Shown here: positions 3,321 to 62,249 of the stretch, piece by piece
How positions within the stretch are numbered: the stretch's first letter is position 1
How the letters are laid out: each line of letters begins with the position of its first letter
NCBI GenBank assembly: GCA_003963305.1
Contig: RXJR01000022.1
Span: 62,001-126,000, forward strand
Source of the DNA: Candidatus Melainabacteria bacterium
Lineage (GTDB): Bacteria > Cyanobacteriota > Vampirovibrionia > Obscuribacterales > Obscuribacteraceae
DNA length: 64,000 nt
Direction: 5' to 3'
The notes under the pieces: generated by a model
Told to the model about the DNA's origin: nothing
Seen by the model: the letters and a program-made list of their open reading frames with translations, nothing else
The model's database searches: none
Made by a program: the position numbers and the translations under genes

Positions 3321-3764
3321 ATGCACGAATCTGAAAAATATTACAACGCACTCTCGGTCTGGATGCCGGAGTTGAATAATCTGGCCAGGTTGCAAATTGA
3401 AATCGGACTTGCGCTCAGTGGACTGAGTGAGAAACGAGTCACATTAGAGGAAAAAATGATTCGCATGCACCTGCATCAGCTCTCGGCTTTGCTTGCGCAG
3501 GTTACTCAGGAAGCGCACCAGATGCTGGCTTCACATTACGATGCAAATCCTTCGACTACTCTTGACGAATTGCGAGTTCTCACTGTCGAAGTACAAGATG
3601 TGGTGGCAGATTTGCTGAAAATCATTCGCTACAACCTGAACTTTTTAGAACAGTACTATGAATACGACTACTATAGCCGCCTTCAGAACGACCATAAATT
3701 TGTAGATCGCACTCAGAAGATTGTGCTTGATTTGAAAAACGCTGTTGCAAACGCCGGCAAATAG
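3321..3764 (+). CDS. Unknown alpha-helical protein, 147 residues
   Basis: I do not recognise this family. The protein is predicted almost entirely helical, with long runs such as LEEKMIRMHLHQLSALLAQV and a Tyr-rich segment (EQYYEYDYYSRL) near residue 112. It has no signal peptide, membrane helix or cysteines, so it is probably a cytoplasmic helical bundle. No strong ribosome-binding site precedes the ATG (only a CGGCGG run). It is a single gene between the upstream terminator and the convergent HEAT-repeat gene. Amino-acid composition and the absence of strong competing frames support it being real. Confidence 0.6.
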   Translation: MHESEKYYNALSVWMPELNNLARLQIEIGLALSGLSEKRVTLEEKMIRMHLHQLSALLAQVTQEAHQMLASHYDANPSTTLDELRVLTVEVQDVVADLLKIIRYNLNFLEQYYEYDYYSRLQNDHKFVDRTQKIVLDLKNAVANAGK

Positions 3765-3870
3765 GCGGCAGTAAATAATAGTCGACGCGAAAACCCGCTG
3801 CTCACCTATTCTTTATATAGCGATTCTACTTCCATAAAGCGGCCAGTGACTCTGCAAGTGGTTATGCACT

Positions 3871-3978
3871 GTAGTACTTGTGCTACTCGTACTTCCAAGT
3901 GATAGTATGTGTGGTGCTCGTACTTGCAGGATAGTACTTATGATTATCGTACTTCCTGTTGATAGTACGCATGGTGCG
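3871..3978. repeat. Imperfect tandem repeat, about 30-bp unit, 3.5 copies
   Basis: Units start near 3871, 3901 and 3930, with a partial one at 3961. They share GATAGTA(C/T) followed about 12-14 nt later by TCGTACTT. Each unit holds two inversely related GTAC-centred half-sites. The array lies in the gap between two convergent genes and is not coding. Confidence 0.65.
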
Positions 3979-3987
3979 GTCGGCAAT

Positions 3988-4527
3988 CTAGCTGTCGTAT
4001 GCGCCCATCTGACGCAATGCCTTCTGCACTTTCCAACGCACCGTTGAATCTTCGTCAGAACACGCATCACGCAACGATTTCAAAATCGTTTCATTTTTGC
4101 TTGATTTCTTTGAACAAATTTTTCCTAGAGCCTTAGCAGCAGTTTTCCTGACTTCGACATCCGGATCACGAAGCAGCTCAGCAATCTTCAGGGTCGCCTC
4201 TTCGGCAGGTGAAGAGATGCGTTCGATGGTTCGCACCGCTTCCATACGCACCCACTCGTCTGAATGATCGAGCAATCCAGCAATCGCCTTGACGTAAGAC
4301 TTTGCAACGCCCGGCCGCTCTTGCAGCCAGCGAAGCGCGGCAAGCTTGACGAAGATGTTCTCATGACCGAGGGCCTGAACAAAAACTTTGGCGTGCATCT
4401 TCAGAGCTTCTTCCGGCAAGCCCAGTTTGAGGGCTCGCACTTCGAAGCCCGGATAATCGTGTTGCACGATCATGTTATCTACGATTTCTGCCAGATCTGC
4501 TAATTCCATGTTGAAGATTATATCCAC
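3988..4527 (-). CDS. HEAT-repeat protein
   Basis: A 179-residue protein made of about four HEAT-like helical pairs. Repeated patterns are visible: VKLAALRWLQERP, VRMEAVRTIERISS, VRKTAAKALGKICS and VRWKVQKALRQMG, each with the D-x-x-VR-x-x-A helix-start signature. Such alpha-solenoids act as scaffolds. Bacterial examples include phycobilin-lyase-like and regulatory proteins, but no catalytic residues can be identified, so no reaction is assigned. The longest frame starts with GTG at 4527; an ATG six codons later (4509) is equally plausible because neither has a clear Shine-Dalgarno sequence. It is soluble and apparently monocistronic. Confidence 0.8.
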   Translation of the reverse strand: MDIIFNMELADLAEIVDNMIVQHDYPGFEVRALKLGLPEEALKMHAKVFVQALGHENIFVKLAALRWLQERPGVAKSYVKAIAGLLDHSDEWVRMEAVRTIERISSPAEEATLKIAELLRDPDVEVRKTAAKALGKICSKKSSKNETILKSLRDACSDEDSTVRWKVQKALRQMGAYDS

Positions 4528-4608
4528 TTGGCACTCAATAGATGCACTTTGCTAGTCTATCGATCCTCTGGATAGACGAATTTATCGATCGCACAGTATT
4601 CCTTGCTT

Positions 4609-6069
4609 TTACTGTCCGCCGAACAAATTTTTGAGCATTCCATCCAGTCCGCCCGTAGGCATGCTGGGCACTTGACCGCCGCCAGCCCCGCCGCCTCCGA
4701 AAAGTCCCTGCAAGCCACCCAGTCCACCGAGTCCGCCTGCGCCGCCTGGCATAGCCCCCTGCATTGCTTGCATGGGATCGGTATTCATGACGACGCCCTT
4801 GCCCACACTTCCGTACAGCACCAGTTTAGACAGGAAACGTTTGTTGGCGTCGTAACTAACCGTGGCGCATTGAACATAAAGTACTGTTGGACTCTGTTTC
4901 GTAAACCTGATTACGGATTCACCATAACCGGAATGAGGCACGTGGGTGCGTTTATCCCACTTCGTTTCTTCCGTGACTATCTGCTGTTCTAAAACGTTAG
5001 GCGCAAGCTGTCGCGTTTCGTTTTTAAGTACACGCTGGCGCAATTGGTTTCCGGACAGTCCTGTTTCGGCACCGCCTGTCTGCACGTCGCCAAACTCCAG
5101 AACGAGCGGCACATTCATGCCTGCCATCATCTGTTGCATCATGCCACCAAATGCGGCATTACCGCCACCACCGCCCATCATTCGACCGACCTGCTCTGCC
5201 TGATCCGTATCGCCGATTGGCACCATAAACAAGCACCGGGCTGGTTCAAGGCTGATGGCGCCGCGCGAACGATCGAACATAAAATTGACTTGACCGACAT
5301 TACCTGGCTTCATCGCCTGAACGGTTCGTCTGGCTTCTTCAGGATCGATACGATAGTAATTCGGGTCTACTTGAACTTGTTGCAAAACCAGGCGACCACC
5401 CCAATTTCCTTCGTAATTAACCGGGAACGATTTGACTACGCCAGCTTGCAGAGGCGCAGTGGCAGTAGCTTTGCCCGCCAGCATCCCTCGTGGGTCCATC
5501 ATCGGGGTTTGAGCTTTTAACGACGGAAAGGCTGCGCCAGCCGAGGCTGACAGCTGCTCGATGCGCCCATACAACATAGTTGGCTTACGCGAAGAAGCAG
5601 TCTCTGTCGGTCGGTCAGCCGGTCTCTCGGGCTGTTTTTCAGTTGTTCGTTCTGGAGCTGTACGTTCAGTGGACTTTTCAGGACGCGACTCACTCTGCTT
5701 GGGGCGTTCGGGCTCGAGGCGCGGAGAGACTTCGGCGTGCTCTAATTTCAATTTCTCTTCTCTGACCGGCGCTTCTGAACGCGCTGCGGGTACCTGAGGC
5801 ACAGGAACAACGTTTTCTCGAACCGGCACAGGTGGCGACGAGTTGACTGGAGCCGGCGCTGCTACATCGCTTCTGGACCCTGACGGTTTTACCGAACCAT
5901 CTTTGTTCATCCATGGGATGTTATCTGGATTGCCAGCCGATGGTGCTGCATCGCCGTTCATGATCTGTTTTTCCAGTGCCGACTCGGCGCTATCGGCAAA
6001 AGCATAAGTGCTGAATGAACCGGATAAAAGAAGTGAAACTGCCAGACCGATTGAAAGCTTTTTTTCCAT
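4609..6069 (-). CDS. Secreted Pro/Gly-rich protein of unknown function
   Basis: A 486-residue protein with a classical Sec signal peptide (MEKKLSIGLAVSLLLSG, probable cleavage after AFA near residue 25). Residues about 50-180 are low-complexity and rich in Pro, Glu, Arg and Ser (for example ERTTEKQPERPADRP). The middle part (about 200-420) looks globular and beta-rich. The C-terminal 70 residues are Gly/Met-rich (GGAGGLGGLGGLQGLFGG). I do not recognise a family. The layout suggests a periplasmic or surface protein with a disordered linker that spans or binds envelope material. It is divergent from the gluconokinase gene, with 155 nt between them. Confidence 0.75.
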   Translation of the reverse strand: MEKKLSIGLAVSLLLSGSFSTYAFADSAESALEKQIMNGDAAPSAGNPDNIPWMNKDGSVKPSGSRSDVAAPAPVNSSPPVPVRENVVPVPQVPAARSEAPVREEKLKLEHAEVSPRLEPERPKQSESRPEKSTERTAPERTTEKQPERPADRPTETASSRKPTMLYGRIEQLSASAGAAFPSLKAQTPMMDPRGMLAGKATATAPLQAGVVKSFPVNYEGNWGGRLVLQQVQVDPNYYRIDPEEARRTVQAMKPGNVGQVNFMFDRSRGAISLEPARCLFMVPIGDTDQAEQVGRMMGGGGGNAAFGGMMQQMMAGMNVPLVLEFGDVQTGGAETGLSGNQLRQRVLKNETRQLAPNVLEQQIVTEETKWDKRTHVPHSGYGESVIRFTKQSPTVLYVQCATVSYDANKRFLSKLVLYGSVGKGVVMNTDPMQAMQGAMPGGAGGLGGLGGLQGLFGGGGAGGGQVPSMPTGGLDGMLKNLFGGQ

Positions 6070-31857: not shown

Positions 31858-33969
31858 TTATTCCTTTTTCAAAGCAGGGTCATTGAAGTTGAAGCCTTTC
31901 AGGAGGTCTGCGTTGCGCGTGCGACTGACTGTGACCTTGGCTTCGTTCGATTCATCTACGTCTATTTGTTTTATCGGAATTTTTTTAAGCTCGCTCAATT
32001 CAGCTTCTGACCAACCTCTAGCGGTAATTCTCAAAAATTGTAGATGCATCCTTCTTAATGCGGGAAGTGATTTTGCGGTGATACTGCAATCTTTGATGAT
32101 CAGGCCATGAAGATTTTTCATTGCAAGAAGCTCTGTCAGATAGTTATCTGTAAACTCCTTGCAATTGTGAAAACAAAGTGTCCTGATGTTAGGCATGGAG
32201 GCGATTTGCTTCACATCGTTTACACTCAGTTCCCGCCAAACTTTCGATTCGTTTTCAGTTTGCATTCCGCCCATGTACGAGAGAAAGGCAAGCGAGTCTC
32301 GTCCTAGCATTTTCAAGACTGAAGTGGGGTCGTCGACGGGGCCAAAGGAGAGCTCATTCAGTGATTGCAGATGCTTGTATTTTAAAATCTCGGCGGCAGG
32401 TAGCCGAGTTTCATCGATGTCCAGAGCTTCCAGCGGCAGGTTCACAATCGGCTCGAGAGTAGTTATGTCACTACCCGCAATATCAAGCTTTTTCACATGT
32501 TTTACATTGGACAACATCTTGAGGGTATCGTCCGAAACCCGATAGACTCCGGCATACACAAGCAATCCGAAATTAACATCGACAAGATTTTTCAATATGT
32601 TAGGGTCTGCCGAATCTTCCTCATCCAAATACAGATTTACAAGTTTGCCATCAGGATAGAAATCACCCAGTGCAATCTCAGGTTTTTGTGTTGTAGAACC
32701 GAGCGAAATGCGCCCGCATTTGCTCGGGAAGTGAAGCACCTCTCTTTTGTGTGCGCCATTACCAACGAACTCCCTGGTCGGGTAATGAAGCACCGCCTTA
32801 TAGTCGACGAAAACTTTCTGAGCAGATTTTTTGTCAGCCAGCTCGGACTCCCTTTTGCGTTCATCTCTGAATGCCTGATCGGCGGAAAATTCAGCGGCGA
32901 AAATAACTTTACGGTCTATAAAGCTCATCGCCAGACAGCTCAAAACTGCTGTAATTACCACAATTGAAAGGTCCATCACTAATTCACGACGGTTCTTTCC
33001 TGGCTCTCGCGCGGGACTGCGAGCAACGGCTGTCTCATTTTTTACAGACAGGTTCTCTTTAATCTTCTTCAAATCAGTAATCAATCGATCGAGTCCCTGG
33101 TATCGATCCTGAACATTTACTTCCAGCATTTTGACAATTACCGCTTCCAGTGCTGATGGAAACTCACTGCCCAGTGACGCTTCCTTCAACGTCGGAGGCT
33201 TATCGGTAATGCGCATGAGCATTGTAGTCATGGCGTTCTCACCAATAAATGGCGGCGTGCCGGTCAGACACTCGAATAGTACACAGCCAAGGGAGTAAAT
33301 ATCCGTTCTCAGATCAACAGGCGTACCCTGACACTGCTCAGGGCTCATATAAATTGGGCTTCCGAAGATTTCACCAGTTTTGGTCAATTCCTGAATTTCG
33401 CCTTGATCAGACTGCGATAACTTTGCTATTCCAAAATCCAAAATCTTGACGGTTCCCTTCCCAGGCAACTGGTTCGGATTTAAAATCATGATGTTGCTGG
33501 GTTTGATATCGCGATGCACTACTCCCTGCAAATGCGCATAATGAAGCCCTTCACAAAGTTGAAGTGCCAGAGGGATTACATAGTTTAACGACAGGCTGCC
33601 GGATTTTTTTAGCAGCTGTGCTAACGTGTATCCTTCTACAAGATCCATTACTAAAAATGGCTGATCGTCTCCATGAATGCCGAAATCGTGCACCTCTATC
33701 AGGCTCGGGTGCTTCAGTTGGGCGGTTGTACGTGCCTCCTGCTGGAAGCGCCGCACCGCGGAATCTGTGTGATGTTGTTTGGCAAGAAGCTTTAATGCAA
33801 ACTCTTTGCCCAGAAAAATTTGCTCTACCTGATAGACATCGCTCATGCCACCACTACCGATGCATGCGAGCACCTTGTAATTCGTGGCAATAATGGTGCC
33901 AGGCGACAACTTAATGTCGACGGTATTACCATCAGATTTTGGTGGCTGCTTGTTTCGATCATGATTCAT
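31858..33969 (-). CDS. Ser/Thr protein kinase-TM-LRR receptor (copy 1)
   Basis: A 703-residue receptor-like kinase. The cytoplasmic Hanks-type kinase domain (about 30-300) has an intact Gly loop GSGGMSDVY (38-46), VAIK-type Lys60, HRD (152-154) in VVHRDIKPSN, DFG (178-180) and an SPIYMSPEQ activation segment. One membrane helix follows (LSIVVITAVLSCLAMSFI, about 330-350). The outer part holds diverged leucine-rich-type repeats (VKKLDIAGSDITTLEPIVNL, then LHGLIIKDCSITAKSLPAL). The kinase should be active. Its ATG overlaps the stop of the upstream paralog as ATGA, so the two are made together. The LRR part probably senses an envelope or external ligand (inference). Confidence 0.9.
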   Translation of the reverse strand: MNHDRNKQPPKSDGNTVDIKLSPGTIIATNYKVLACIGSGGMSDVYQVEQIFLGKEFALKLLAKQHHTDSAVRRFQQEARTTAQLKHPSLIEVHDFGIHGDDQPFLVMDLVEGYTLAQLLKKSGSLSLNYVIPLALQLCEGLHYAHLQGVVHRDIKPSNIMILNPNQLPGKGTVKILDFGIAKLSQSDQGEIQELTKTGEIFGSPIYMSPEQCQGTPVDLRTDIYSLGCVLFECLTGTPPFIGENAMTTMLMRITDKPPTLKEASLGSEFPSALEAVIVKMLEVNVQDRYQGLDRLITDLKKIKENLSVKNETAVARSPAREPGKNRRELVMDLSIVVITAVLSCLAMSFIDRKVIFAAEFSADQAFRDERKRESELADKKSAQKVFVDYKAVLHYPTREFVGNGAHKREVLHFPSKCGRISLGSTTQKPEIALGDFYPDGKLVNLYLDEEDSADPNILKNLVDVNFGLLVYAGVYRVSDDTLKMLSNVKHVKKLDIAGSDITTLEPIVNLPLEALDIDETRLPAAEILKYKHLQSLNELSFGPVDDPTSVLKMLGRDSLAFLSYMGGMQTENESKVWRELSVNDVKQIASMPNIRTLCFHNCKEFTDNYLTELLAMKNLHGLIIKDCSITAKSLPALRRMHLQFLRITARGWSEAELSELKKIPIKQIDVDESNEAKVTVSRTRNADLLKGFNFNDPALKKE

Positions 33970-36083
33970 TTAACTGACGGCTCTTCGTGATCGGATTTTC
34001 CTGACCGCTTGGATTGATCATGTGACAGCGACTCTGAGGAATCAAAAAATAAGGCTTGCGTGTCGGAGAACTTCTGACGCTGTTTTGCGTCTTGCTCCTG
34101 CAATCTCGGTTCTCTTATATCAACCGCAAAGGGTAATTGATGCAGTTTAGCAACATCGGTCTTCGACCATCCGACCGTGGTGAGCGTCAAGTTGACTAAT
34201 TTTTGCCTTTTAAGAAGGGGTATCGAGCGGGGACTTATACTGCACTCCTTCAATTCAAGCGCATCCATCTTTTTCGAATTAAGGAGCTTCGCAAGACAAT
34301 CGTCATTGAATTCAGGCGAGTGGAGCACAGCCAGACTGGATAAATGAGGAATTTTGATGAGCAATTCGACGTCACTGAGATTTAAACCTCTTGCGTTGGT
34401 CTTCTGCTCATTTATCTCTGGACCAGTATATTTCAAGAAATTGAGTCTGGAGTTTTCTGCCAATGCCGCAAGCGTTTTCTTGGGCTCTTTGACCGGACCA
34501 AAGTTGAACAGCAAAAGTTCTCGGAAACGTTTGACGCGTAATAACTCAGACAGCGGTACGTGTGTATCTGTGACATCGAGTCGACTTAGATAGGGTGCAT
34601 CATAAATCGGTTCGAGGTTGCTAATCGGGGCACCGGCAATACAAAGATGTTCAATGTGCTTGATTGGTGTAAACATTTTCAGTGTCTGGTTGTCGATACC
34701 GACCTGTGCAGAACCAAAACCCAGCTGACCAAACTTAACTTCAGACAAATTCTCCAAAAAACTGGGGTCCGTCGCAGCTTCTTCGTTCAATTTAAACGAG
34801 ACTAAAGTTCCTTGTGGAATACGAAAAACTCCTTTAGCAGGACGCTCGGCGGCACTACCGATACTAATCAATCCTGACGCGGCAGGAAAATGCAAGAACT
34901 CTTCCGCACCATGCTCAGTATCAACTACTTGCCGCCAGGGATGCTGCAGTCGGGTTTCAAAATGAGGCATTTCACCCGGCAACAGATTTGCATCACTTTT
35001 GATTGATAGTGGCTTTTCCACATCTGCTAACAATGCAGGTACAACGAACTGCTTGTCGAAAAAATATGTGCCCGTGCAACAAATGAAGGCCGTCACTAGC
35101 ACAAGTAAAATCTGTTTTGTATAGGCGATTTTCGGTTTGCGTCCCTTTACTTGGCGCGGCAAAACGGCATCTGGGTCACCGATGCGCATGAGACTCTGAA
35201 TCACCGAACCAAAGTCTCGAAATCGTTCATCTGGTTCAACGGAAAGCATCTTCTGGACAATGAGTTCAAGCGCCGGTGGAAAGTCCAACCCCAGCGAGCC
35301 ATCTTTCAGTGAGGCTGCACGATCTGTAAGTCGCTTTACCATCGTCGACATGGCGGTGTCACCGACGAATGGCGGCAGCCCTGTAAGACACTCATAAACG
35401 ACACAACCAAGAGAGTAAATGTCAGTTCGTTGGTCGACGACCGTACCGCGACACTGCTCCGGGCTCATGTAAAGCGGACTACCGAATATCTCCCCAGTCC
35501 TCGTCAGTGCTTGAATCTCGCCACCTTCGGACTGCATAAGTTTTGCGATGCCAAAATCGACGATCTTGACAGTACCTTCACCCGGTAACTTGTTAGGATT
35601 CAGTACAATTATGTTGCTGGGTTTGATATCGCGATGGACGATACCCTGTTCGTGCGCATACATAAGACCAAAGCCTACTTGTATTGCAAGCGCAACTACG
35701 TAGTCGACCGGCAAAACCCGCTTCTCTTTAATGATTTGATCGAGCGGCACACCGGTTACGTAGTCCATCACAAGAAAGGGCTGACCGTCGTCATTAATTC
35801 CGAAATCATGAACTTCAACGAGATTGGGATGTCGCAGTGTAGCAGCCATTTTCGCCTCTAGCTGAAATCGCCGAACTGCAACGTCGGTTTGTCTGCTAAC
35901 GTCCAGCAGCTTCAAGGCAAACTTCTTCTTCAAGTCGATTTGTTCGACAAGATAAACAATGCCCATGCCACCACTGCCAAGAATCGAAAGTACTTTGTAC
36001 TTTCTGGCGATCAAGGTGCCCGGCGACAGCTCTTTTACTTCGCCCTGGGTCAGCGTGCGTGTTGTGGGATCTTGTTCTGACAT
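33966..36083 (-). CDS. Ser/Thr protein kinase-TM-LRR receptor (copy 2)
   Basis: A 705-residue paralog of the downstream gene with the same plan. Kinase domain: Gly loop GSGGMGIVY (36-44), Lys58, HRD (150-152), DFG (176-178), SPLYMSPEQCRG; all catalytic residues are present. A membrane helix (ILLVLVTAFICCTGTYF, about 325-341) leads to an outer domain with LRR-like repeats (IEHLCIAGAPISNLEPIY, then MDALELKECSISPRSIPLL). The kinase halves of the two genes are much more alike than the LRR halves, as expected if duplicates diverged in what they sense. A terminator-like hairpin lies just upstream, so it probably has its own promoter in the 36084-36125 gap. Confidence 0.9.
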   Translation of the reverse strand: MSEQDPTTRTLTQGEVKELSPGTLIARKYKVLSILGSGGMGIVYLVEQIDLKKKFALKLLDVSRQTDVAVRRFQLEAKMAATLRHPNLVEVHDFGINDDGQPFLVMDYVTGVPLDQIIKEKRVLPVDYVVALAIQVGFGLMYAHEQGIVHRDIKPSNIIVLNPNKLPGEGTVKIVDFGIAKLMQSEGGEIQALTRTGEIFGSPLYMSPEQCRGTVVDQRTDIYSLGCVVYECLTGLPPFVGDTAMSTMVKRLTDRAASLKDGSLGLDFPPALELIVQKMLSVEPDERFRDFGSVIQSLMRIGDPDAVLPRQVKGRKPKIAYTKQILLVLVTAFICCTGTYFFDKQFVVPALLADVEKPLSIKSDANLLPGEMPHFETRLQHPWRQVVDTEHGAEEFLHFPAASGLISIGSAAERPAKGVFRIPQGTLVSFKLNEEAATDPSFLENLSEVKFGQLGFGSAQVGIDNQTLKMFTPIKHIEHLCIAGAPISNLEPIYDAPYLSRLDVTDTHVPLSELLRVKRFRELLLFNFGPVKEPKKTLAALAENSRLNFLKYTGPEINEQKTNARGLNLSDVELLIKIPHLSSLAVLHSPEFNDDCLAKLLNSKKMDALELKECSISPRSIPLLKRQKLVNLTLTTVGWSKTDVAKLHQLPFAVDIREPRLQEQDAKQRQKFSDTQALFFDSSESLSHDQSKRSGKSDHEEPSVK

Positions 36084-36259: not shown

Positions 36260-37156
36260 TTAGAGCTTTTGGTTCCTAATTCTTTCGACCGACTCCGAGG
36301 CTTCGACTCGATTGGGTTTTGGAGGTATTGCTGGGCCAAATTCCTCCCAAATAGCGGCCGCCATCTCCGGATTCTTTTGTTTGCGCAGAAAAGCTGCATA
36401 CGCCCGGGCTACTTGACGCTTGAAGCCCAGATCATGCAAATCAGGGTTGCTGGTAAATTGATAGATGGCAAACTGGTAACGCTCCGCCGCGCGGATGTTA
36501 AACCCTGTCGCTTCAGCCCGCTGAGCCTCAATAAACGCATCTAGAGCCTCACGATTTGATTGTTTCAGCTGACTATCCGATGGCTTATGAGTCTCCAGAT
36601 TGTCGACAAAGGCTGTGGGTGTAATTGCATTGGCAAGATTGGATTTCGGGATTGGCTTGGACGCGGCTTTTCTTGCTGATGTGCTCTGGTCTGGAATGAC
36701 TTGTTTTGGCCAGACGTTCGGTTTAAACCAAGCACCGCCAGCACTAGGTCGCCTTTCCTCCGATTCGGACGGAGCGCTCGATTCTGTTGACTCCTTATAA
36801 GATAAATCGCTAGCCTTCGCTGGAATAATGTGTAAGAAAGCCAACAAAGCCGCAGCTGTTGCTCGCATTTTGCGCTTGCAAGCATCGACAAGGCGCCTAC
36901 CAACCGGGCAATCTCTGGTAATGATGGTTCCATCTTGCCTGCGATAAAGTCGAATGCACAGTTGCTCATCGCTGTTTTGAAAAAGCTCTTTTACTTCCTT
37001 TCTGGTCATGTCGGAAAGGTTGTAGACATTAAGCCTGCAAAGCGTGCAGTGCCTGATTCTTTCATCACCTTCGATGCTTTCCATGCCTTCCCAACTGATT
37101 GGACAAGGGGCTGCTACGGCAACATCATCTATGTTGAACTTTGGTCGACGAAACAT
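36260..37156 (-). CDS. Unknown protein with conserved N-terminal Cys-rich domain
   Basis: About 298 residues. The start is set at the ATG at 37156, which has GAGGG 7 nt upstream; the open frame extends 42 codons further. The N-terminal 90 residues carry CPISWEGMESIEGDERIRHCTLCRLNVYNLSDMT with CxxC-type spacing and a later DCPVG. This C-W-x-x-M-x-G-x-x-R-x-x-x-C-x-x-C-x-x-x-VYNLS block recurs in uncharacterised proteins of several phyla. A hydrophobic stretch (ATAAALLAFLHIIPA) follows, then a Pro/Ser linker and a helical, TPR-like C-terminus. It is probably a membrane-tethered protein with a small metal or redox domain. Function unknown. Confidence 0.7.
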   Translation of the reverse strand: MFRRPKFNIDDVAVAAPCPISWEGMESIEGDERIRHCTLCRLNVYNLSDMTRKEVKELFQNSDEQLCIRLYRRQDGTIITRDCPVGRRLVDACKRKMRATAAALLAFLHIIPAKASDLSYKESTESSAPSESEERRPSAGGAWFKPNVWPKQVIPDQSTSARKAASKPIPKSNLANAITPTAFVDNLETHKPSDSQLKQSNREALDAFIEAQRAEATGFNIRAAERYQFAIYQFTSNPDLHDLGFKRQVARAYAAFLRKQKNPEMAAAIWEEFGPAIPPKPNRVEASESVERIRNQKL

Positions 37157-37454
37157 GACCATGCCCTCGAAATAGCCTGTAAAGCCCATCATAGAGATGA
37201 AGTCAGTTCGTGGAAAGTTGTAAATCGGCTGATAATGGGGAGATCCCCTACTGACTTTCCCTGGGGCGCCGTCGAAGCCCAAATATTTAACACAGGAATG
37301 TCCTACAAATCCGACAAGCGTCTAGAATAGGTATGGGCGCTCGCTTACTTTCTAGCAGGCAGCGTGGAGGTATTCCCGGCGAAACGTGAGCAGGCTTGCG
37401 TTGCGGCAGGTTTACTTTTGAACCACTTACCAGAGATCACACGGAGCAGCAAAA

Positions 37455-38915
37455 TTGACCTTCTCTGACAACAGAAAGGAATCACTGGGAGATCGGATGC
37501 GGCGCAGATCCTTTACAGCGCCTGGAATGCCACCGCCAGTCCAACCTGCTCCAACCGAAACCGCGCCCATGATTTCTGAAGCGATGATGGCGCTGTCAGG
37601 GGATCTAAGTGAAAAGCCTATTCAATGGCTTCTCATGGCTGCCCAGCATTATGAAGTAACCGGCAGGCTCCAACTTGGTCTTGCGGCCTGTCCGGTGAAC
37701 ATTCAGTTTGGCTTAGGACGACCACTGCACGCCCAGTCGCCTTTCTGCGTCGGTTCAGAGGCTATTCTCGACCTATTTATCTGGAAAGACGGCAGAATCC
37801 AATTCGAGACGGGCAAGCACCCTGAACACGTTTCAGTACATGAGTCGGTCGAGGAATTAATACAACGCGGTGAGGCTTACGCCGAAAGCCAGGTCTTCCT
37901 GGAGCAGCACGCAATCAACGAGCTTTCGTTTTTAATGCGACCGCCGACGCGAGTTAGCACCGAAGATATTGAGAAGCGCCTTAAGGATGGGCAGCCCATA
38001 GACACCAACATCCAGATGGAGTTTTATTCGAACATCTACGGCACGCGCAACATCAAAGACACAGCCGAAAAGCTCAGTTTGCAGCCGAGCCGCTGGACTT
38101 CGATAGCGGCGAACCTCTTGCAACTGGGAATCTTGTTTACACCAGACGGAAGAAGCATCGCGACGATTGCGGATAAGCGGGTGACTGAGCCTAAACCAAC
38201 GGCCGAATTCGAAGCTCTAAAACTACCAACCGCCGATTCGCCGCCCCAACCGGTAGCACAAGCTGCTGCTGGAGGAGCATTGTCCAGTCTGTGGCAGACG
38301 AAGGCAACGGTGCATACCCCGCCAGTACAGGCACCACCGCTCGCTTCAGAAGTAACCATGACTCCAGCCACCATGGCACAGTCTGGAATCGCCAATCACA
38401 TCGTCACCCTTGACCAGACAGACTATAACCGCGTTCTGGGCTTGCTCAGTTCGCCTGACGACGGCATCTATACATTCGAAGCCCTGCAATTTTTCCTGGC
38501 CAAAGAATTTGCCAGAGCTTGCCGCTTCAAGACTAGTTTGACTCTGGTTCTTTACACGATAACTTGCAGAGAACCAGCGGTACCACCGGCGATATCACAA
38601 CTGGTCACTACGACTGTCAGTCGCATCAAACGAGATGTAGATGTGTTCGGACACTTCGGCACCCGAGCCTATGCTTTGCTGCTGCCTAATATCGAAAGCA
38701 ATCAGGCTTGTTTACTGGTCGACCGAATCAGCAAAGACCTTTTGGAAGTCAATCCAACGCTAAAGGATAGCGGAGTCGCGCTCCATTTTGGACTCGCTTC
38801 AGTTCCAGGTGACACAAGTGAGATCAACGGGCTTGTGAAAGCTGCTCAGGTTTCCATGTTCCATGCTACGAGCAACAGACTTTTGCGAACACAGGCACAA
38901 CAGCTTCGCCAATAA
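37455..38915 (+). CDS. DUF4388 (PATAN-like) protein with degenerate GGDEF domain
   Basis: A 486-residue cytoplasmic protein. It starts at TTG with GGAG 8 nt upstream. Residues about 45-200 match the DUF4388 pattern (MALSGDLSEKPIQWLLMAAQ, then VTGRLQL), a module found in cyanobacterial PatA-like regulators that links signalling proteins. After a Pro/Ala linker, the last 160 residues follow a GGDEF fold (FFLAKEFARACRFKTSLTLVL, then RIKRDVDVFGHFGTRAYALLLP). The GG(D/E)EF signature is replaced by FGTRAY, so it should not make c-di-GMP. It may bind a nucleotide or partner instead. It sits divergent from the Cys-rich-protein gene and convergent with the pseudokinase gene. Confidence 0.83.
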   Translation: MTFSDNRKESLGDRMRRRSFTAPGMPPPVQPAPTETAPMISEAMMALSGDLSEKPIQWLLMAAQHYEVTGRLQLGLAACPVNIQFGLGRPLHAQSPFCVGSEAILDLFIWKDGRIQFETGKHPEHVSVHESVEELIQRGEAYAESQVFLEQHAINELSFLMRPPTRVSTEDIEKRLKDGQPIDTNIQMEFYSNIYGTRNIKDTAEKLSLQPSRWTSIAANLLQLGILFTPDGRSIATIADKRVTEPKPTAEFEALKLPTADSPPQPVAQAAAGGALSSLWQTKATVHTPPVQAPPLASEVTMTPATMAQSGIANHIVTLDQTDYNRVLGLLSSPDDGIYTFEALQFFLAKEFARACRFKTSLTLVLYTITCREPAVPPAISQLVTTTVSRIKRDVDVFGHFGTRAYALLLPNIESNQACLLVDRISKDLLEVNPTLKDSGVALHFGLASVPGDTSEINGLVKAAQVSMFHATSNRLLRTQAQQLRQ

Positions 38916-38954: not shown

Positions 38955-41165
38955 CTACCGCCTGATTCTGTTCAAATTGACCACAGTATCTGGCAGACTG
39001 TCTTCAAAAGCTTTTGCTTGCTCCGTGCTGATATTAGAGCAGTCGCGAAAGTCGACCAGGCGCAAATTCTTTAGCCCACGCAGAACCTCAAATGATTTCG
39101 GCGTCAGACCACAATCATTGAAGTTGATGAACACTAAATTCTTCAGACGCGACAGATGCTCTACGCCCTTATCGGAAATGTGACAGCTTGCTAAATCCAA
39201 ACTCCGCAGTTTCGGATTTAGATAAGCGAGATCGTCATCGCGCAAACTTGATCCTGAAGCATCGAGAACGACTAGATGTGGCATTTCTTGCAGCTCTTTC
39301 AAAACGCCGATCGGTACACGACAGTTGTTGATGCCGACATATCGCAACTGCAATTTACCAAAGCCTCTAAACGTAGAATTGTTGGAAGAAGAACCTGAGA
39401 GATCAAGCTCACGCTCGTCCCTGGAATGATGAAACCGAACCACCGTGTTCGGCAAGGCGGTTGCTAGTTCATCAACATCTTTTTTCCGTATCCCGGCATT
39501 ATTTTGAAGGTCCACATAATACAGATTCGGCAGCATTTTCAAATACTTCAGTGACGCTGCAGTAATCTGATTGTCCTGCAATTCGAGTCTGGCAAGACTT
39601 TTGACATTTGAAATCAGTTGAACGCAGCGATCATCAAGATGACAAGACTTCAGAGTCAAACCGACCAAATCATGATTCAGTTCTCTTAAATCGTCGGGTG
39701 AAAGTTCGAGTGATTCGGCATGCAGAAAACGCAAAGTCGGAATCTTTTGTAACGCCAGGAAAGCCTTACGGGTCAGTCTGGGACAGTTTCTTATATCAAC
39801 TGACTTAAGCGGCAGATCCGATAAGGCGATTATGTCACTGTCAGTTATGTTGGTATTTGAAACCGACAGAAACTCTAATTTACTCAATGTAGAAATCTTG
39901 CGGAAGTTACCGATACACCCGTCCGCCCGCAAACCGTAACCCGTGCAGAACTTCATCACTGAGTCGAGTTTTGTACTTCCCGTCAGCTCGCCCTTACTTA
40001 AAACCGGAGGATTGATGGCAAAATTGTTAGCACCAGCTGCAGTGCCGGCGGAAGAAGGTTCAGCCAAGCTGGTTCGTATCGCCCCAACTTGTTGCTGCAT
40101 GCTGGCTAAACAACCAAGTGTCATAGCATACAATGCAACTGCCGCAGCTGCACACAGAGCGAACGACGTAAGAACTATCTGATCGCGTTTCTTGTTGGTA
40201 AGAATTGTCCTCTCTAATGCGACCGTGTCAATCCGCTGCATCTCTGAAAGACTTGCTGCAGATTCATGCCGGAGAATCCTGTATCGATGGGGAATTTTAC
40301 GAGATGGTATCTCTAGGGCTACAGGTCGGCGCCGCTGCACTGACAACAGTGCCTCATTCAATTCCTGTGCGTCAGGGTATCGTTCACTCCGCTTTTTGGA
40401 CAGCGCCTTGCGAAAGAAGACTTCAATCTCGGAGGGTTGCCTGGTGTCAGTTGCAGCAGCAAGACTTGAGGGACTAGCATGCCTTTGCAGAGCCAATTCA
40501 TTCACAGTAGCACTTGCCTGAGGAGGCAATCCGGTTATGCACTCATACAGAATGAGCGCCAGCGCATAAGTGTCGCTTTCTGCGCATGCAGCTTCGCCCC
40601 GCAACTGCTCCAGACTCATATAGAGTGGAACTCCGACTCCTCCTGCAGGGGGCTTATTCCCCAGGGAAGCAATGTAACCGATGCCCAGATCACTGAGAAT
40701 AACTCGATCGTCGTCGATCCAGATGCATCGTGGAGTCAGACAGCCATGAAAGAGTCCTTTCTTGTGCATAGCATCCAGAGTTTGAGAGGCAGAAATTCCC
40801 AGACGCAGACACTCTTCGATGCTAACAATCTTGCGGTGTTGCAAAATGTGAGAGAGTTGATCTCCGGATGATCTAGCAAACACAAGATAAGGTTCGTCAT
40901 AACTTGTAGAACCGTAGCTAATGACGGGCTGGGTGCTCTCTGGCGCTGTTTGTTGCAGACCTTCAATGTAGGCTGCGATTGATGAGTGGACTGATTCTGC
41001 CTGATAGAAGCTCTCCTCAAAAATGTGCACTTCGCAGAATTGCTGATCCGCATTCAGTCCCTGGTAAATCGAGCGAACGTTATCGTGGCGAAGAACCTTT
41101 TCAAGCCTTATATCCCCGCACTGCGTGCCCAATCTTTCGAGATAGCGAGTATCGTTATCCAGCAT
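38955..41165 (-). CDS. Pseudokinase-TM-LRR protein
   Basis: About 736 residues from the ATG at 41165, inside the end of the histidine-kinase gene; ATGs at 41171 and 41186 are alternatives. The N-terminal 270 residues are kinase-like (PLYMSLEQLRGE, SDTYALALILYECITGLPP). However, HRDxKPxxN is replaced by HGCLTPRC, DFG by DLG, the Gly loop is absent, and there is no Lys at the VAIK position. It therefore should not phosphorylate. A membrane helix (TSFALCAAAAVALYAMTLG) is followed by about ten clear LRRs (LEFLSVSNTNITDSDI, then LRSLDLASCHISDKGVEHL). Its coupling to the histidine kinase suggests it is the ligand-sensing or scaffolding partner. Confidence 0.87.
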   Translation of the reverse strand: MLDNDTRYLERLGTQCGDIRLEKVLRHDNVRSIYQGLNADQQFCEVHIFEESFYQAESVHSSIAAYIEGLQQTAPESTQPVISYGSTSYDEPYLVFARSSGDQLSHILQHRKIVSIEECLRLGISASQTLDAMHKKGLFHGCLTPRCIWIDDDRVILSDLGIGYIASLGNKPPAGGVGVPLYMSLEQLRGEAACAESDTYALALILYECITGLPPQASATVNELALQRHASPSSLAAATDTRQPSEIEVFFRKALSKKRSERYPDAQELNEALLSVQRRRPVALEIPSRKIPHRYRILRHESAASLSEMQRIDTVALERTILTNKKRDQIVLTSFALCAAAAVALYAMTLGCLASMQQQVGAIRTSLAEPSSAGTAAGANNFAINPPVLSKGELTGSTKLDSVMKFCTGYGLRADGCIGNFRKISTLSKLEFLSVSNTNITDSDIIALSDLPLKSVDIRNCPRLTRKAFLALQKIPTLRFLHAESLELSPDDLRELNHDLVGLTLKSCHLDDRCVQLISNVKSLARLELQDNQITAASLKYLKMLPNLYYVDLQNNAGIRKKDVDELATALPNTVVRFHHSRDERELDLSGSSSNNSTFRGFGKLQLRYVGINNCRVPIGVLKELQEMPHLVVLDASGSSLRDDDLAYLNPKLRSLDLASCHISDKGVEHLSRLKNLVFINFNDCGLTPKSFEVLRGLKNLRLVDFRDCSNISTEQAKAFEDSLPDTVVNLNRIRR

Positions 41166-42990
41166 CGTCATCCATCTCTGAATCATCGCTCGACGCAGAT
41201 GGTATTTCAAACCAGAAAATGCTGCCACTGCCTGCATTTGACTCGACACCAATAGCGCCACCATGGCGTTCTACGATTGCTTTGCATATCGACAAACCCA
41301 GTCCGGAGCCGCCTAACTTCGAGTCATCGCTGGCCTGCACTTGCTGAAATCTATCGAAGATTTTGGATTCCATTCCCTGGGGCACACCACGACCATGATC
41401 AGCAACTGCAAAGCGCACGGCCGTTTCGTTTTCCTTGACCGAGACGTCGATTCGCTCTTTCTCGGGTGAGAACTTAATGGCGTTGGAGATTAGATTGACC
41501 ATAACCTGAATCAGTCTCTCCGAGTCGCCATAGAAGTAGGGATTAGAATGTTCTGCAATATGCAGTTCGATCTGCTTCTTTGACGCCAATCCCTGCATGA
41601 GATGAACGGCTGGATTGATTATGGCTTCGGCATTTATGCCAATTAAATCGAGGTCGATTTCTCCCGACTCAAGCTTTTCCATACTCAGCAAACCATTTAC
41701 CAGCCCGATCAGACGATCGATGCTCTCTGTCGCCATGCCTATTCGCTCGCTTGCGGTATCTGGCAGCTGCCCGTATATACCCCGAACGGCATTTTGCATT
41801 ATCAGTTGAATTGAGCTCAAAGGTGCACGCAGATCGTGGCTGACCATGGCTACAAAATCTCGTTTCAGACGCTCCACTTGCTTGCGTTGACTGATGTCGT
41901 GAATGACACAAAACAACGCTCTATCCTCAGCAGACCAGCGAGCCGACCAGGCGCATTCGATTAATGCGCCGTCCTTCTTACGCATAGTGTTTTCGATCTC
42001 AACCGGCTCATCTTGATCTGCTGCACGAACAAGCGCAGACAAGGTAGCTTCCTTCTCCTCATCCTTCATGATGTCGAGAAATCTTCTGCCGACGATCAGA
42101 TCGGGGGTAAGTCCAAACACCGCTGTCACTGCTGGATTTATGTCGATACAGATGCCGGTCTTGTCTAAACTGAGAATTACATCGACAGCATTTGTTATCA
42201 ACGCTTGCTCACGTCTTATTGTTTCAGACAAGATCTCTGCCATCTCATGAAAGGATCTGTCTAACTGACCCAGCTCATCGTGCGCATCTTCCAGCGGTGC
42301 TTGCAGTGGGACTCCGGCGCTCAGTCTGACTGAATTGGCGCGCACTCTGTCCACTTTCCGAGCGATTCCCCGAGTAAAGGCCAACATCAAAAGAATTGCA
42401 ATTATAACGTTTGCGAAAACTCCTGCTCCGAGAAAGTAGAGAACGGTTTCATAAGATTGGCTCTCGGCCTTGACCTCAGACTGCTGCTCTCGCTCGAATG
42501 ATTCAAGCAATCCATTCACCTGACGTGTTTTAGTGAGCAAAATATCCTTCAAGACCATTGCATAGTAGTCTCGCTGTGGCGTGTGCGATATGGCGGCTTT
42601 ACGAAACCGCTCAATCACCTGCAGCCCTTCCACGAGAGTGTCGGAAAGCTCTTTCATCTCACGCTCGTGGGCACTGCCTCTGGTGAGTTCGACGAGAGAT
42701 GCCATCTGTACAGGAATTTTTTCAAGATATTGCTTATACGAGCGCTGAAATTCGTCGGAGTCGGGCGCATCTGGTGACATCACTTGCTGAGTGAGACCGA
42801 TCGATGCGTTGTCTACCGATCCGGAAAGCTTGTTCAACTGCGAAATTACTTCGCGAACCGTTCTCTCATGCTGTACTTGCTCGTGCGAATGGCGCAAAAG
42901 CATAGCAAGAGACAGAACAAACGCCAGCTGGAGGAGCAAAGTGATTGAGACAAACGCGATACCCTTTTCGAAGAGACTGAGCTTGATCAA
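41155..42990 (-). CDS. Membrane sensor histidine kinase (HAMP-PAS-HisKA-HATPase)
   Basis: A 611-residue sensor. The start is a TTG with GAGG 7 nt upstream. Helix 1 (IAFVSITLLLQLAFVLSLAML) and helix 2 (LGAGVFANVIIAILLMLAF) flank a roughly 150-residue helical outer domain. Then come a HAMP linker, a PAS domain (AVDVILSLDKTGICIDINPA), the HisKA box VAMVSHDLRAPLSS with the phosphorylated His, and the ATPase boxes NAIKFS (N), DHGRGVP (G1) and GGSGLGLSICKAI (G2). All catalytic residues are present. It lies 94 nt after the response-regulator gene, and its end overlaps the start of the pseudokinase gene. The PAS ligand and outer signal are unknown. Confidence 0.94.
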   Translation of the reverse strand: MIKLSLFEKGIAFVSITLLLQLAFVLSLAMLLRHSHEQVQHERTVREVISQLNKLSGSVDNASIGLTQQVMSPDAPDSDEFQRSYKQYLEKIPVQMASLVELTRGSAHEREMKELSDTLVEGLQVIERFRKAAISHTPQRDYYAMVLKDILLTKTRQVNGLLESFEREQQSEVKAESQSYETVLYFLGAGVFANVIIAILLMLAFTRGIARKVDRVRANSVRLSAGVPLQAPLEDAHDELGQLDRSFHEMAEILSETIRREQALITNAVDVILSLDKTGICIDINPAVTAVFGLTPDLIVGRRFLDIMKDEEKEATLSALVRAADQDEPVEIENTMRKKDGALIECAWSARWSAEDRALFCVIHDISQRKQVERLKRDFVAMVSHDLRAPLSSIQLIMQNAVRGIYGQLPDTASERIGMATESIDRLIGLVNGLLSMEKLESGEIDLDLIGINAEAIINPAVHLMQGLASKKQIELHIAEHSNPYFYGDSERLIQVMVNLISNAIKFSPEKERIDVSVKENETAVRFAVADHGRGVPQGMESKIFDRFQQVQASDDSKLGGSGLGLSICKAIVERHGGAIGVESNAGSGSIFWFEIPSASSDDSEMDDDAG

Positions 42991-43084
42991 TAGTCATCCT
43001 CATGATTACTTGTCATGCGCAGCCACTGCTCCAAAGGATCCAGAATTCAAGATTTTGACAGGGCGGTAGCAGTCGCGCAATCAC

Positions 43085-43768
43085 CTATTTATTTGCATCA
43101 TCGACTACGTATCCGACTTTATGCACAGTCCGAAAAATTGACGGTTGCCCTTCTAGATCCAATTTCTTGCGCAAATTTTTGATGTGAGAGCGAATCATTT
43201 CTGCCGAAGTATCTTCGTCAGCCGGCCAGACACGCGCAATCAACGTAGTGGCGTTGAACACTCTGCCCTTGTTTCGCATCATAAATTCGAGCAACGAAAA
43301 TTCTTTTGGAGTGAGATGAATTTCTTTGCCGTCTTGCATTACTTTCCTGGCTTCGAAATCCAAAACAATATTGCCTACCTGCACCTGACTGTTTGTGAAA
43401 CCTTCAGCGTTTCGCCTCAAGAGGGCGCGAATGCGAGCAACCAATTCACGCCAATCGAAGGGCTTGGCAAGGTAGTCGTCGGCGCCGGCATCAAGCCCAT
43501 CAATCTTCTGATTGACATCGCTCTGCCCTGTCAGCATTAAAATGGCACACTTCTTGCCTGCCCTGCGCGCCTGACGGCAGACATCTTTGCCATTCATTCC
43601 TGGCAACATCACATCCAGGACAAGCACGTCATAGTCGTAGGTTTCAATCAATTCCAGAGCTGATTCGCCGTCAAAGACGGCCTCGACAGTATGCCTTTCA
43701 GAACGCAGCACGTCGGCCACTGATGCATTCAGCGATATATCATCTTCGCAAATCAGTATCTTAGCCAT
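43085..43768 (-). CDS. OmpR-family response regulator
   Basis: A 227-residue regulator. The receiver domain has the acidic pair (CEDD), the phosphoacceptor Asp in LVLDVMLPGMNG (about residue 53), the switch Thr in LMLTGQ and Lys in LAKPFDW. The C-terminal winged-helix domain (LTPKEFSLLEFMMRNKGRVF, then IRSHIKNLRKKL) binds DNA. It is the first gene of the operon with the histidine kinase and pseudokinase genes, so it is their cognate output. Target genes cannot be read from this window; the kinase-LRR genes next door are candidates. Confidence 0.95.
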   Translation of the reverse strand: MAKILICEDDISLNASVADVLRSERHTVEAVFDGESALELIETYDYDVLVLDVMLPGMNGKDVCRQARRAGKKCAILMLTGQSDVNQKIDGLDAGADDYLAKPFDWRELVARIRALLRRNAEGFTNSQVQVGNIVLDFEARKVMQDGKEIHLTPKEFSLLEFMMRNKGRVFNATTLIARVWPADEDTSAEMIRSHIKNLRKKLDLEGQPSIFRTVHKVGYVVDDANK

Positions 43769-43867: not shown

Positions 43868-44125
43868 TCAGGCGATTCGAGAAGCCTTTTTCTTCAACTC
43901 TTGAACGAGATCTTCCTGACCGAGAACATAGCCGCGGCGTGCCTGGTCATCGGCATAAGCAATAATCGCTTCAGTGACATTGTTGAGCATAGACATTGGA
44001 ACGAATTCGCTAACTTGATTGAGCAGTCTTTCAACAGTCACCCACTCTTCCGTGTTCAACGGAATAGCATCATCAAGTCGGGCGATAATGGTGTAGTTGC
44101 GGAGCTTGTCAGTCTTAGTATTCAT
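43868..44125 (-). CDS. Small conserved protein, YADDQARRGY family (copy 2)
   Basis: An 85-residue paralog of the protein at 14922-15200. The ATG has AAGGA 7 nt upstream, which fixes the start. The two share ARLDD(A)IPLNTEEW-like spacing in the middle and the near-identical C-terminal block YADDQARRGYVLGQEDL followed by Lys-rich helix and RIA. It is predicted all-helical, soluble and without cysteines. It is a stand-alone gene with its own terminator, located between the CCA-enzyme gene and the two-component operon. Function unknown; two copies 29 kb apart suggest a lineage-specific family. Confidence 0.8.
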   Translation of the reverse strand: MNTKTDKLRNYTIIARLDDAIPLNTEEWVTVERLLNQVSEFVPMSMLNNVTEAIIAYADDQARRGYVLGQEDLVQELKKKASRIA

Positions 44126-60959: not shown

Positions 60960-62249
60960 GTGTCCACTTCCCTCTCCCAGTATAAGCAGCATGGGCTGCC
61001 GGACAACCCGGAGCGATACGGTCCTTCGCTCGCTCACATTATTACTGTCGAAAATAATCAAGACGTCGTTCTGGGGCAGGCCTGGCTTGCCGGTCCTGGA
61101 ATGCTGATTACCTGCGCGCATGTGATTGAGCGATTCATCAACACGCCCGGAGCGCTGATTGCGAAATTCCCAGCATCGGGAAATGGCTACACCATACGTG
61201 AACTTAAGGTACACCCGAAATTTTCAAGAGCGGCTGACCAGCTGGTTCGCTACGATGCGGCGCTGCTTTATGTCGAACTACGCTACCCTGAACGAGAAGC
61301 CAATCCGCTGCCAGTGCAGTTCAACAAGACCGTTTCAGCGCAACAGGAAGTGTCGGCAGTTCGCTACCCTGTGCACCTCGGTCAATTCACCTCTTCACCC
61401 AACCCGCTAGCTCAAATAGGGCGCATGTTAGGACCGCTGCGCAAGAACGACAGCTTCCATATTTTGCACGATCTTGCGCTGGCGCCTGGAGATTCAGGGT
61501 CGCCGATTTTCGACGGTCAGACGGTCGTCGCCCTTCATTGCGGTGATACTGCCACTTTGCCCGGGTTGAACCTGCCGACAACATCTATCCGACTTGCACT
61601 GTCGATTGACGCACTGAAAGATCTCGGCGTGGAAGAGAACCTCGTAACCGCAGAACGAAGCGCCTTTTGGAATGTCGCCAGAGCCTTGATTGCATTCATC
61701 GTTATGTTCTTCGTCAGCTTTGCAGCCACGTCGATCGTTGTCAACGGTCAGCATGTGCAGACCTGGACAATCGAGAAACCGACTCTGCTGCCGGTGCAGG
61801 TTGTTCTGGAAAAGCCTTTCCAGAGCTATCGATTCGGCGATCCGGTGACGATGACCTTTCGGGTCGAAGAACCATGCTTCGTTTATGCTTTCCTGGCTGG
61901 AGCTGATGATATGCCGGTCCTGGTTCTGCCGTCCTTTGGAGAAAAAGAGATGCTCACGCCTGATGCTCCGCACACCGTGAGCACGGTGGCGGGTTCCCGC
62001 GACCCGATGAAGGTGGGATCTAAGCCGCTCAAGCTGCACGTCTTCGCTACCAAGAACTCAGAATTCCCGTTCTATACAAGCGATAAAGCCAATAAAGTAA
62101 CAGCCAGCATGCTCACAAGAAGAATTCTCAAGCTGGGTAAGGACGATCCCAGTGCAGCCTGGCATCTAGTTATGGACATGCCAACGGCGGAAGAGATTCC
62201 CAAGTTTGTGCTCGATTCAGTAAAAAAGAACCAGCCAAAAGCCCAGTAA
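60960..62249 (+). CDS. Trypsin-like serine protease-TM-DUF4384-like protein
   Basis: About 429 residues from the GTG at 60960; the open frame extends to 60822 but would overlap the divergent gene. The protease domain has the full triad: His in LITCAHVIE (about 54), Asp in VRYDAALLYV (99) and Ser in APGDSGSPIFDG (179). One membrane helix follows (LIAFIVMFFVSFAATSIVV, about 240-260). The outer part begins with PVQVVLEKPFQSYRFGDPVT, the pattern of DUF4384-like domains. With no signal peptide, the protease should be cytoplasmic and the C-terminus outside. That is unusual and suggests a sensor-triggered internal protease. Confidence 0.83.
   Translation: MSTSLSQYKQHGLPDNPERYGPSLAHIITVENNQDVVLGQAWLAGPGMLITCAHVIERFINTPGALIAKFPASGNGYTIRELKVHPKFSRAADQLVRYDAALLYVELRYPEREANPLPVQFNKTVSAQQEVSAVRYPVHLGQFTSSPNPLAQIGRMLGPLRKNDSFHILHDLALAPGDSGSPIFDGQTVVALHCGDTATLPGLNLPTTSIRLALSIDALKDLGVEENLVTAERSAFWNVARALIAFIVMFFVSFAATSIVVNGQHVQTWTIEKPTLLPVQVVLEKPFQSYRFGDPVTMTFRVEEPCFVYAFLAGADDMPVLVLPSFGEKEMLTPDAPHTVSTVAGSRDPMKVGSKPLKLHVFATKNSEFPFYTSDKANKVTASMLTRRILKLGKDDPSAAWHLVMDMPTAEEIPKFVLDSVKKNQPKAQ

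Follow-up and report, generated by a model that had tools for sequence, protein, structure and literature searches.

The 64,000-nucleotide stretch analysed here (the window; positions 62,001 to 126,000 of contig RXJR01000022.1, assembly GCA_003963305.1) belongs to a metagenome-assembled genome of a Candidatus Melainabacteria bacterium (7.48 Mb in 44 contigs). It contains three minus-strand genes that encode, in this order, an OmpR-type response regulator, a HAMP-PAS histidine kinase and a protein in which a Ser/Thr-kinase-like domain is followed by a transmembrane (TM) helix and leucine-rich repeats (LRRs). As judged from its residues, the kinase-like domain is a genuine Ser/Thr pseudokinase, with the fold present and the VAIK Lys and HRD Asp gone. 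The arrangement of the genes strongly suggests that they form one operon-like unit and are expressed together, and we propose, tentatively but as the reading with most support, that the pseudokinase-LRR protein serves the histidine kinase encoded just before it as an accessory co-receptor.

The three-gene unit

The three open reading frames (ORFs), their order and their strand had been given in a preliminary description made from the sequence alone, and are borne out by ORF positions and by the Pfam domains of each protein (Table 1). The first two encode a two-component pair. The regulator has a receiver (REC) domain and a DNA-binding domain, and the kinase has HisKA and HATPase_c domains with a phospho-acceptor His (Pfam and translations) in the layout TM, ~150-amino-acid extracytoplasmic region, TM, HAMP, PAS, HisKA, HATPase_c, with the H, N, G1, F and G2 boxes legible in the translation. 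In the sister species, Cyanobacteria bacterium SZAS-4 (G001; like the analysed organism an uncultured relative of the cyanobacteria, deposited separately and placed by NCBI in the Cyanobacteriota/Melainabacteria group, with which the name Vampirovibrionia used in the preliminary description agrees), the regulator is 91% identical (ratio of nonsynonymous to synonymous differences, pN/pS, 0.07) and the histidine kinase 80% identical (pN/pS 0.18).

The longest ORF of the third gene runs from 38955 to 41264 (769 amino acids). The earliest start codon common to this gene and its SZAS-4 orthologue is the ATG at 41165, and for this reason 38955–41165 (736 amino acids) is taken as the gene. So delimited it begins inside the end of the histidine-kinase gene, as had been described, with an overlap of 11 nucleotides; in SZAS-4 the corresponding overlap is 8 nucleotides (ATGTTTGA). 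No NCBIfam equivalog was reached for the regulator, the histidine kinase or the pseudokinase protein.

A pseudokinase domain with a complete fold

The Pfam Pkinase model matches the third protein at 52.4 bits (cut-off 31.7), 113 bits below the active kinase gene at 33966–36083 of the window. The pseudokinase and its orthologue were aligned with 38 kinase domains from the same genome, and the columns lost in the pseudokinase proved to be identical in 34 to 38 of these 38 active paralogues. In the two orthologues the Gly-loop glycines are replaced (R26, D28 and N/R29), the β3 Lys (K47) is H/Q, the αC Glu (E66) is Tyr in both, R141-D142 of HRD are G141-C142 in both (HGC), and the catalytic-loop K144 and N147 are T/S and C/S, respectively. 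Retained in both are D159 of DFG, E186 of APE, D198 of αF and R262. The losses of HRD, the catalytic-loop Asn, the Gly loop and the VAIK Lys that had been listed from the sequence therefore stand, and those of the αC Glu and the catalytic-loop Lys are to be added to them, but to call DFG lost was too strong: its Asp is kept in both orthologues, with the Phe changed in both and the Gly in one. The normal ATP site is probably lost.

An active kinase of the WNK type, which the preliminary description had set against its own reading, was looked for in the alignment and is rejected, as the HRD Asp has no substitute and the residue at the relocated site is not Lys. That residue, number 31, lies three before the invariant Tyr of strand β2, at what we take to be the WNK lysine position; it is Arg in both orthologues and Gly or Ser in all 38 paralogues.

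The kinase-like fold that had been read from motifs is complete and two-lobed in an AlphaFold model made with 40 sequences (predicted local distance difference test score, pLDDT, 82.6; predicted template modelling score, pTM, 0.81). It is of the PknA/PknB kind, the closest structures being Mycobacterium tuberculosis PknA (VIA-align Z 31.3, root-mean-square deviation 2.4, 265 residues) and PknB (Z 29.3). Genome-wide, 98 of 115 kinase matches retain the catalytic residue set that was scored (K/D/N/D), and the kinase-TM-LRR architecture occurs, on a crude count, in 13 genes, among which the pseudokinase is the sole dead one and the other 12 keep all four residues. We note that five more kinase-like genes of this genome (G000 C4:66054, C23:32289, C21:117250, C9:302559 and C9:304375) lack the HRD Asp; their architectures are different, and none lies beside histidine-kinase genes.

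In the full-length AlphaFold model the kinase domain is followed by a short linker, a single continuous helix of 59 residues, a disordered stalk and the LRR units; the pTM of this model is 0.46, at which the mutual orientation of its two halves is not meaningful. The helix comprises a juxtamembrane part, the membrane span (about residues 329–352) and the start of the outer stalk, and a KKR on the N-terminal side of the span is as expected for an N-in topology. The predicted build thus has the kinase domain inside and the LRRs outside, the outer location following from the one N-in membrane helix. The LRR domain of the SZAS-4 orthologue (L034 9957-12284) is longer in its middle by about 40 residues, roughly two LRR units, and so the number of repeats differs between orthologues.

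Selection on the pseudokinase gene

The pseudokinase-LRR protein is 55% identical to its SZAS-4 orthologue, with synonymous sites saturated and a pN/pS of 0.36, like that of the active neighbour kinase gene (0.35), and its reading frame is open over 736 codons in both genomes. The gene is being kept by selection and is not decaying. Regional constraint was compared between the pseudokinase pair and two active kinase pairs from the same two genomes. N-lobe identity is 35% in the pseudokinase over the few alignable profile columns, or 49% over residues 1–96, against 69–71% in the active pairs; the catalytic-loop part is 48% identical (68–74% in the active pairs), the activation loop 55% (88%) and the αF–αI region 68% (70–75%). 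This pattern would be expected for a domain retained for its shape and surface and not for its cleft. Relaxation of the N-lobe, catalytic loop and activation loop, with αF–αI held, is also what one would see were the C-lobe the part that matters.

Distribution of the block

SZAS-4 has the same three genes, in the same order and with the same neighbours. In a third species of the genus (G002) the syntenic site lacks all three: genes for a tRNA-nucleotidyltransferase-like protein, the 85-amino-acid protein and the DUF4388 protein are contiguous there, a clean empty site. Synteny in relatives, on which the preliminary description had let its reading depend, thus holds for order and overlap in the sister species and does not extend to G002. 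The three genes would appear to have been gained or lost together, in a single event.

An orthologue of the pseudokinase is found in 2 of 50 family genomes, and one of the histidine kinase (79% identical), sought in 36 family genomes, in the same two, the next best match being 40%. The histidine-kinase family itself has up to twenty or more members per genome. At its other 28 best loci no kinase-like gene adjoins; the neighbours are regulators, histidine kinases and unrelated genes. Apart from SZAS-4, a wider search through 36 and later 50 genomes of the family and through the GTDB contig collection yielded a single distant Planctomycetota kinase match. A run of regulator, histidine-kinase and DUF4388 genes in G033 was considered as the same locus without a pseudokinase and was not used; that genome has a better DUF4388 match elsewhere. 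The top phmmer matches of the pseudokinase are active kinases of mixed architecture with near-equal scores, and in a quick tree of 113 kinases both pseudokinases share a stem of length 4.6 whose attachment is to other long branches, so that no parent clade was resolved.

At 31858–36083 of the window (minus strand) lie two kinase-TM genes of the active type, whose outer parts resemble LRRs only poorly; both are conserved in SZAS-4 (L034:2738-6918). They are missing from the syntenic stretch of G002, where an M23-peptidase-like gene directly follows the DUF4388 gene.

A proposed co-receptor and the alternatives to it

In its fuller form, which we hold with some doubt, the proposal is that a Ser/Thr-kinase-type receptor, dead as an enzyme, has been taken over by a two-component system as its third, ligand-sensing subunit, where it would set histidine-kinase activity allosterically. 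The third protein would be a former kinase-TM-LRR receptor that lost catalysis and kept its fold. Its LRR domain would bind something outside the inner membrane and the continuous membrane helix would pass the signal inward; the pseudokinase domain would contact the histidine kinase through the conserved lower C-lobe and, if the effect runs in this direction, shift its kinase/phosphatase balance, and the OmpR-type regulator would then alter transcription. The overlap of the two genes, similar in kind in two species whose synonymous sites are saturated (11 and 8 nucleotides), favours this proposal and would fit co-transcription, and the catalytic residues have been lost identically or in parallel in both orthologues.

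Several points weigh on the other side. Operon neighbours need not touch each other. There are two orthologues and one presence/absence event only, so that co-inheritance is a single observation. With about 113 genes for Ser/Thr kinases and 121 HATPase_c matches in this genome, chance alone would give 2.0 same-strand close pairs of a Ser/Thr kinase and a histidine kinase gene, and 4 are present (P = 0.14). The conservation of αF–αI may merely mirror the hydrophobic core, and the pseudokinase protein has changed faster than the histidine kinase has (identities of 55% and 80%), and this gives little reason to expect a broad, tight interface between them. Adjacency alone is not beyond chance. It is the conserved overlap and the synteny that speak for a unit, and chance adjacency as the whole explanation leaves both of these, as seen in the sister species, unaccounted for.

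The main alternative is that the protein acts in the Ser/Thr-kinase network, pairing with at least one active kinase-TM-LRR paralogue as its activator, decoy or dead partner, and shares only its expression with the two-component genes. HER3 and the plant receptor pseudokinases are models for such a role, PknB-type kinases dimerise through the kinase domain, and the many Ser/Thr-kinase genes of this genome, with 12 live paralogues of the same architecture and two active kinase-TM genes a few kb downstream that have the same presence/absence pattern, speak for this reading. We think this unlikely, as it leaves the overlap with the histidine-kinase gene and the joint absence of the three genes unexplained; in addition, conservation in the pseudokinase is among the lowest in the N-lobe, the part through which PknB forms its back-to-back dimer.

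The gene could also be an operon passenger, co-transcribed with a two-component pair that controls the same stress or surface condition and with a job of its own, for example as a scaffold or an adhesive surface LRR protein. Adjacency near the chance level and evolution fast relative to its partners would both fit, but the overlapping start and a block conserved in two species make this unlikely too. We give still less weight to the idea that the domain is not dead and binds nucleotide or catalyses some other reaction by means of the retained DFG Asp and of the Arg found at the presumed WNK-lysine position. D159 is invariant and Arg31 sets the two orthologues apart from their 38 Gly/Ser paralogues, but the HRD Asp has no replacement, the αC Glu is Tyr, Arg and Asp stand in for Gly-loop glycines, and constraint is lowest in the cleft region, all of which make such an activity very unlikely. 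SidJ and SelO are pseudokinases with new activities of this sort (PMC12599244). That the gene is a degenerating pseudogene or an assembly artefact, as lost catalytic residues in metagenome-assembled genomes might lead one to suspect, is hardly credible given 736 open codons in two genomes, 55% identity, a pN/pS of 0.36 and an orthologue in the separately deposited SZAS-4; this conservation refutes a pseudogene.

Ser/Thr kinases joined to two-component genes in the family

Full-length homologous fusions of a NarL-like receiver to a Ser/Thr kinase occur in 30 of 50 family genomes. A second kind, in which an OmpR-type REC-winged-helix regulator is fused to a kinase with intact catalytic motifs, occurs in 15 of 50, and at the threshold used in none of the 291 other sampled genomes of the phylum (1 of 292, the one being the window's own). 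By fusion and by gene neighbourhood, the linking of Ser/Thr-kinase modules with two-component parts is, on this survey, a recurrent feature of the family. Since such regulator-kinase fusions recur, the idea put forward in the preliminary description is less singular than it had seemed.

Some individual cases may be noted, among them the other three of the four same-strand close pairs, at C11, C15 and C17. At C11 (L039:2482-4113, 4148-5323) and C15 (L038:4525-6123, 3511-4488) of the analysed genome (G000) a NarL-like receiver and a helix-turn-helix (HTH)-like segment are fused to a Ser/Thr kinase whose motifs are intact, and a histidine kinase adjoins; one of these histidine kinases starts with a receiver domain. 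At C17 (L040:2180-6375) genes on one strand encode in succession a histidine kinase of the HisKA_3 type, a response regulator and a kinase-TM-TPR protein in which the motifs are likewise intact. The OmpR-type fusion of G031 is divergent to two histidine kinases and near a DUF4388 gene. The output of an OmpR-type fusion regulator could be both DNA binding and Ser/Thr phosphorylation.

Neighbouring genes

The edges of the block are marked by a convergent DUF4388/GGDEF-like gene and an 85-amino-acid gene (Table 1). Between the DUF4388 gene and the active kinase genes, at 36260–37282 on the minus strand, lies a gene for a 340-amino-acid protein without a Pfam match. It is fast evolving (47% identity, pN/pS 0.46) and has a conserved N-terminal segment, CP.SWEGM...R.C.LC.LNVYNLS.MTRKE. 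Rfam has no match in the 64-kb window.

Table 1. Features of the three-gene block, its flanks and related fusion genes; positions are those of the window unless a locus is named
Feature	Position	Strand	Evidence
OmpR/PhoB-type response regulator (REC + winged helix)	43085..43768	-	Pfam Response_reg 2.3e-27, Trans_reg_C 2.2e-23
Membrane histidine kinase, TTG start	41155..42990	-	Pfam HATPase_c 1.1e-29, HisKA 3.4e-11, PAS; HAMP weak
Overlap of pseudokinase start (ATG) and histidine-kinase end (TAA, ends 41155), 11 nucleotides	41155..41165	-	Sequence comparison
Pseudokinase-TM-LRR protein, 736 amino acids	38955..41165	-	Pfam Pkinase 6.5e-14, LRR_4 1e-13, LRR_14 1.6e-10; orthologue 55% identical
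Pseudokinase domain, residues 8–281	40323..41144	-	AlphaFold pLDDT 82.6, pTM 0.81; catalytic residues lost
Single continuous helix, residues 309–367	40065..40241	-	AlphaFold full-length model; hydropathy
LRR domain, residues 418–733, about 13 beta-alpha repeats of 23–24 amino acids	38967..39914	-	Pfam LRR models; AlphaFold strand-helix pattern, pLDDT mostly >80
Flanking convergent DUF4388/GGDEF-like gene, downstream edge of block	37455..38915	+	Pfam DUF4388 8.1e-6; retained in G002 without the block
Flanking 85-amino-acid gene, upstream edge of block	43868..44125	-	Near-identical protein at empty site of G002
OmpR-type REC-winged-helix-Ser/Thr kinase fusion, examples	L131:1481-3118 (-) in G031; G000:C6:89742-91358 (L146); L142:1489-3084 in G001		

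Comparison with known systems

Where the two main phospho-signalling worlds of bacteria meet, the usual link is phosphorylation of one by the other. Inputs from Ser/Thr kinases to two-component systems are on record: the WalRK system is regulated by PrkC (PMC4478028), and StkP has an action on ComE (PMC6010298). If the proposal made here is right, a pseudokinase within a two-component operon would be a non-catalytic link between the two, and a family in which such joining is repeated would be a good place to study how these links arise. The Hanks-type receptor kinases PknB, PrkC, StkP and PknA share with the pseudokinase-LRR protein the fold (Z 29–31) and the layout predicted for it, with a kinase domain inside, one membrane helix and a repeat-built domain outside; in the present protein, by contrast, the catalytic residues are lost, the predicted outer domain is LRR and not PASTA, and the gene lies inside a putative two-component operon. 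A bacterial Ser/Thr kinase that carries LRRs was recorded in 2005 (PMC1262709).

Bacterial Ser/Thr pseudokinases are themselves recognised, mostly without known function, with non-catalytic roles for EssB/YukC and MviN. The families MviN/ActPs3, EssB/YukC, CP1, DLHK and GLW resemble the present domain in having a kinase fold without the VAIK and HRD residues, and in several, which are membrane proteins, the span follows the kinase domain (PMC12599244). CP1 pseudokinases occur in cyanobacteria with PAS/GAF-type sensory domains, have no membrane span and are fused to COG3899, whereas the present protein has one membrane helix and no such domain in the Pfam scan. In ActPs3/MviN, which is actinobacterial, all three motifs are degraded and the activation loop has a deletion; here the DFG Asp is kept and the host, to judge by SZAS-4, is in the Cyanobacteriota/Melainabacteria group. 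Neither LRRs nor a histidine-kinase neighbour come up in those passages of that review that were searched.

Within the analysed genome, the 12 kinase-TM-LRR paralogues have the same architecture, but their K/D/N/D residues are intact and none is joined to a histidine-kinase gene in the same manner. Among the accessory proteins of histidine kinases, SaeP/SaeQ, BceAB, KipI and DbfQ are not known to have a kinase fold or LRRs. These are like the pseudokinase-LRR protein in being separate proteins that adjust a histidine kinase and are often encoded beside the pair (reviewed in PMC12189002; for DbfQ, PMC12714742). DivL and the pseudokinase forms of ChrS are catalytically altered kinase-like proteins that steer signalling through an active histidine kinase (PMC5361649, PMC9491836), but they have histidine-kinase folds, and the present domain has a Ser/Thr-kinase fold.

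The preliminary description knew of no bacterial system with this build. A literature search outside which most subscription journals lay turned up no account of a pseudokinase or LRR protein whose gene accompanies that of a histidine kinase, and to that extent the exact combination is new; the joining of Ser/Thr kinases to two-component systems is not, as it recurs in the family by other routes. The REC-HTH-Ser/Thr-kinase fusions likewise join a Ser/Thr-kinase domain to a two-component pair and lie beside histidine kinases. In them the kinase motifs are intact and the kinase is fused to the regulator, with no LRR and no membrane span. Beside them the pseudokinase-LRR form, narrow in its distribution and with a mechanism that we offer as a proposal, would be a new version of such joining.

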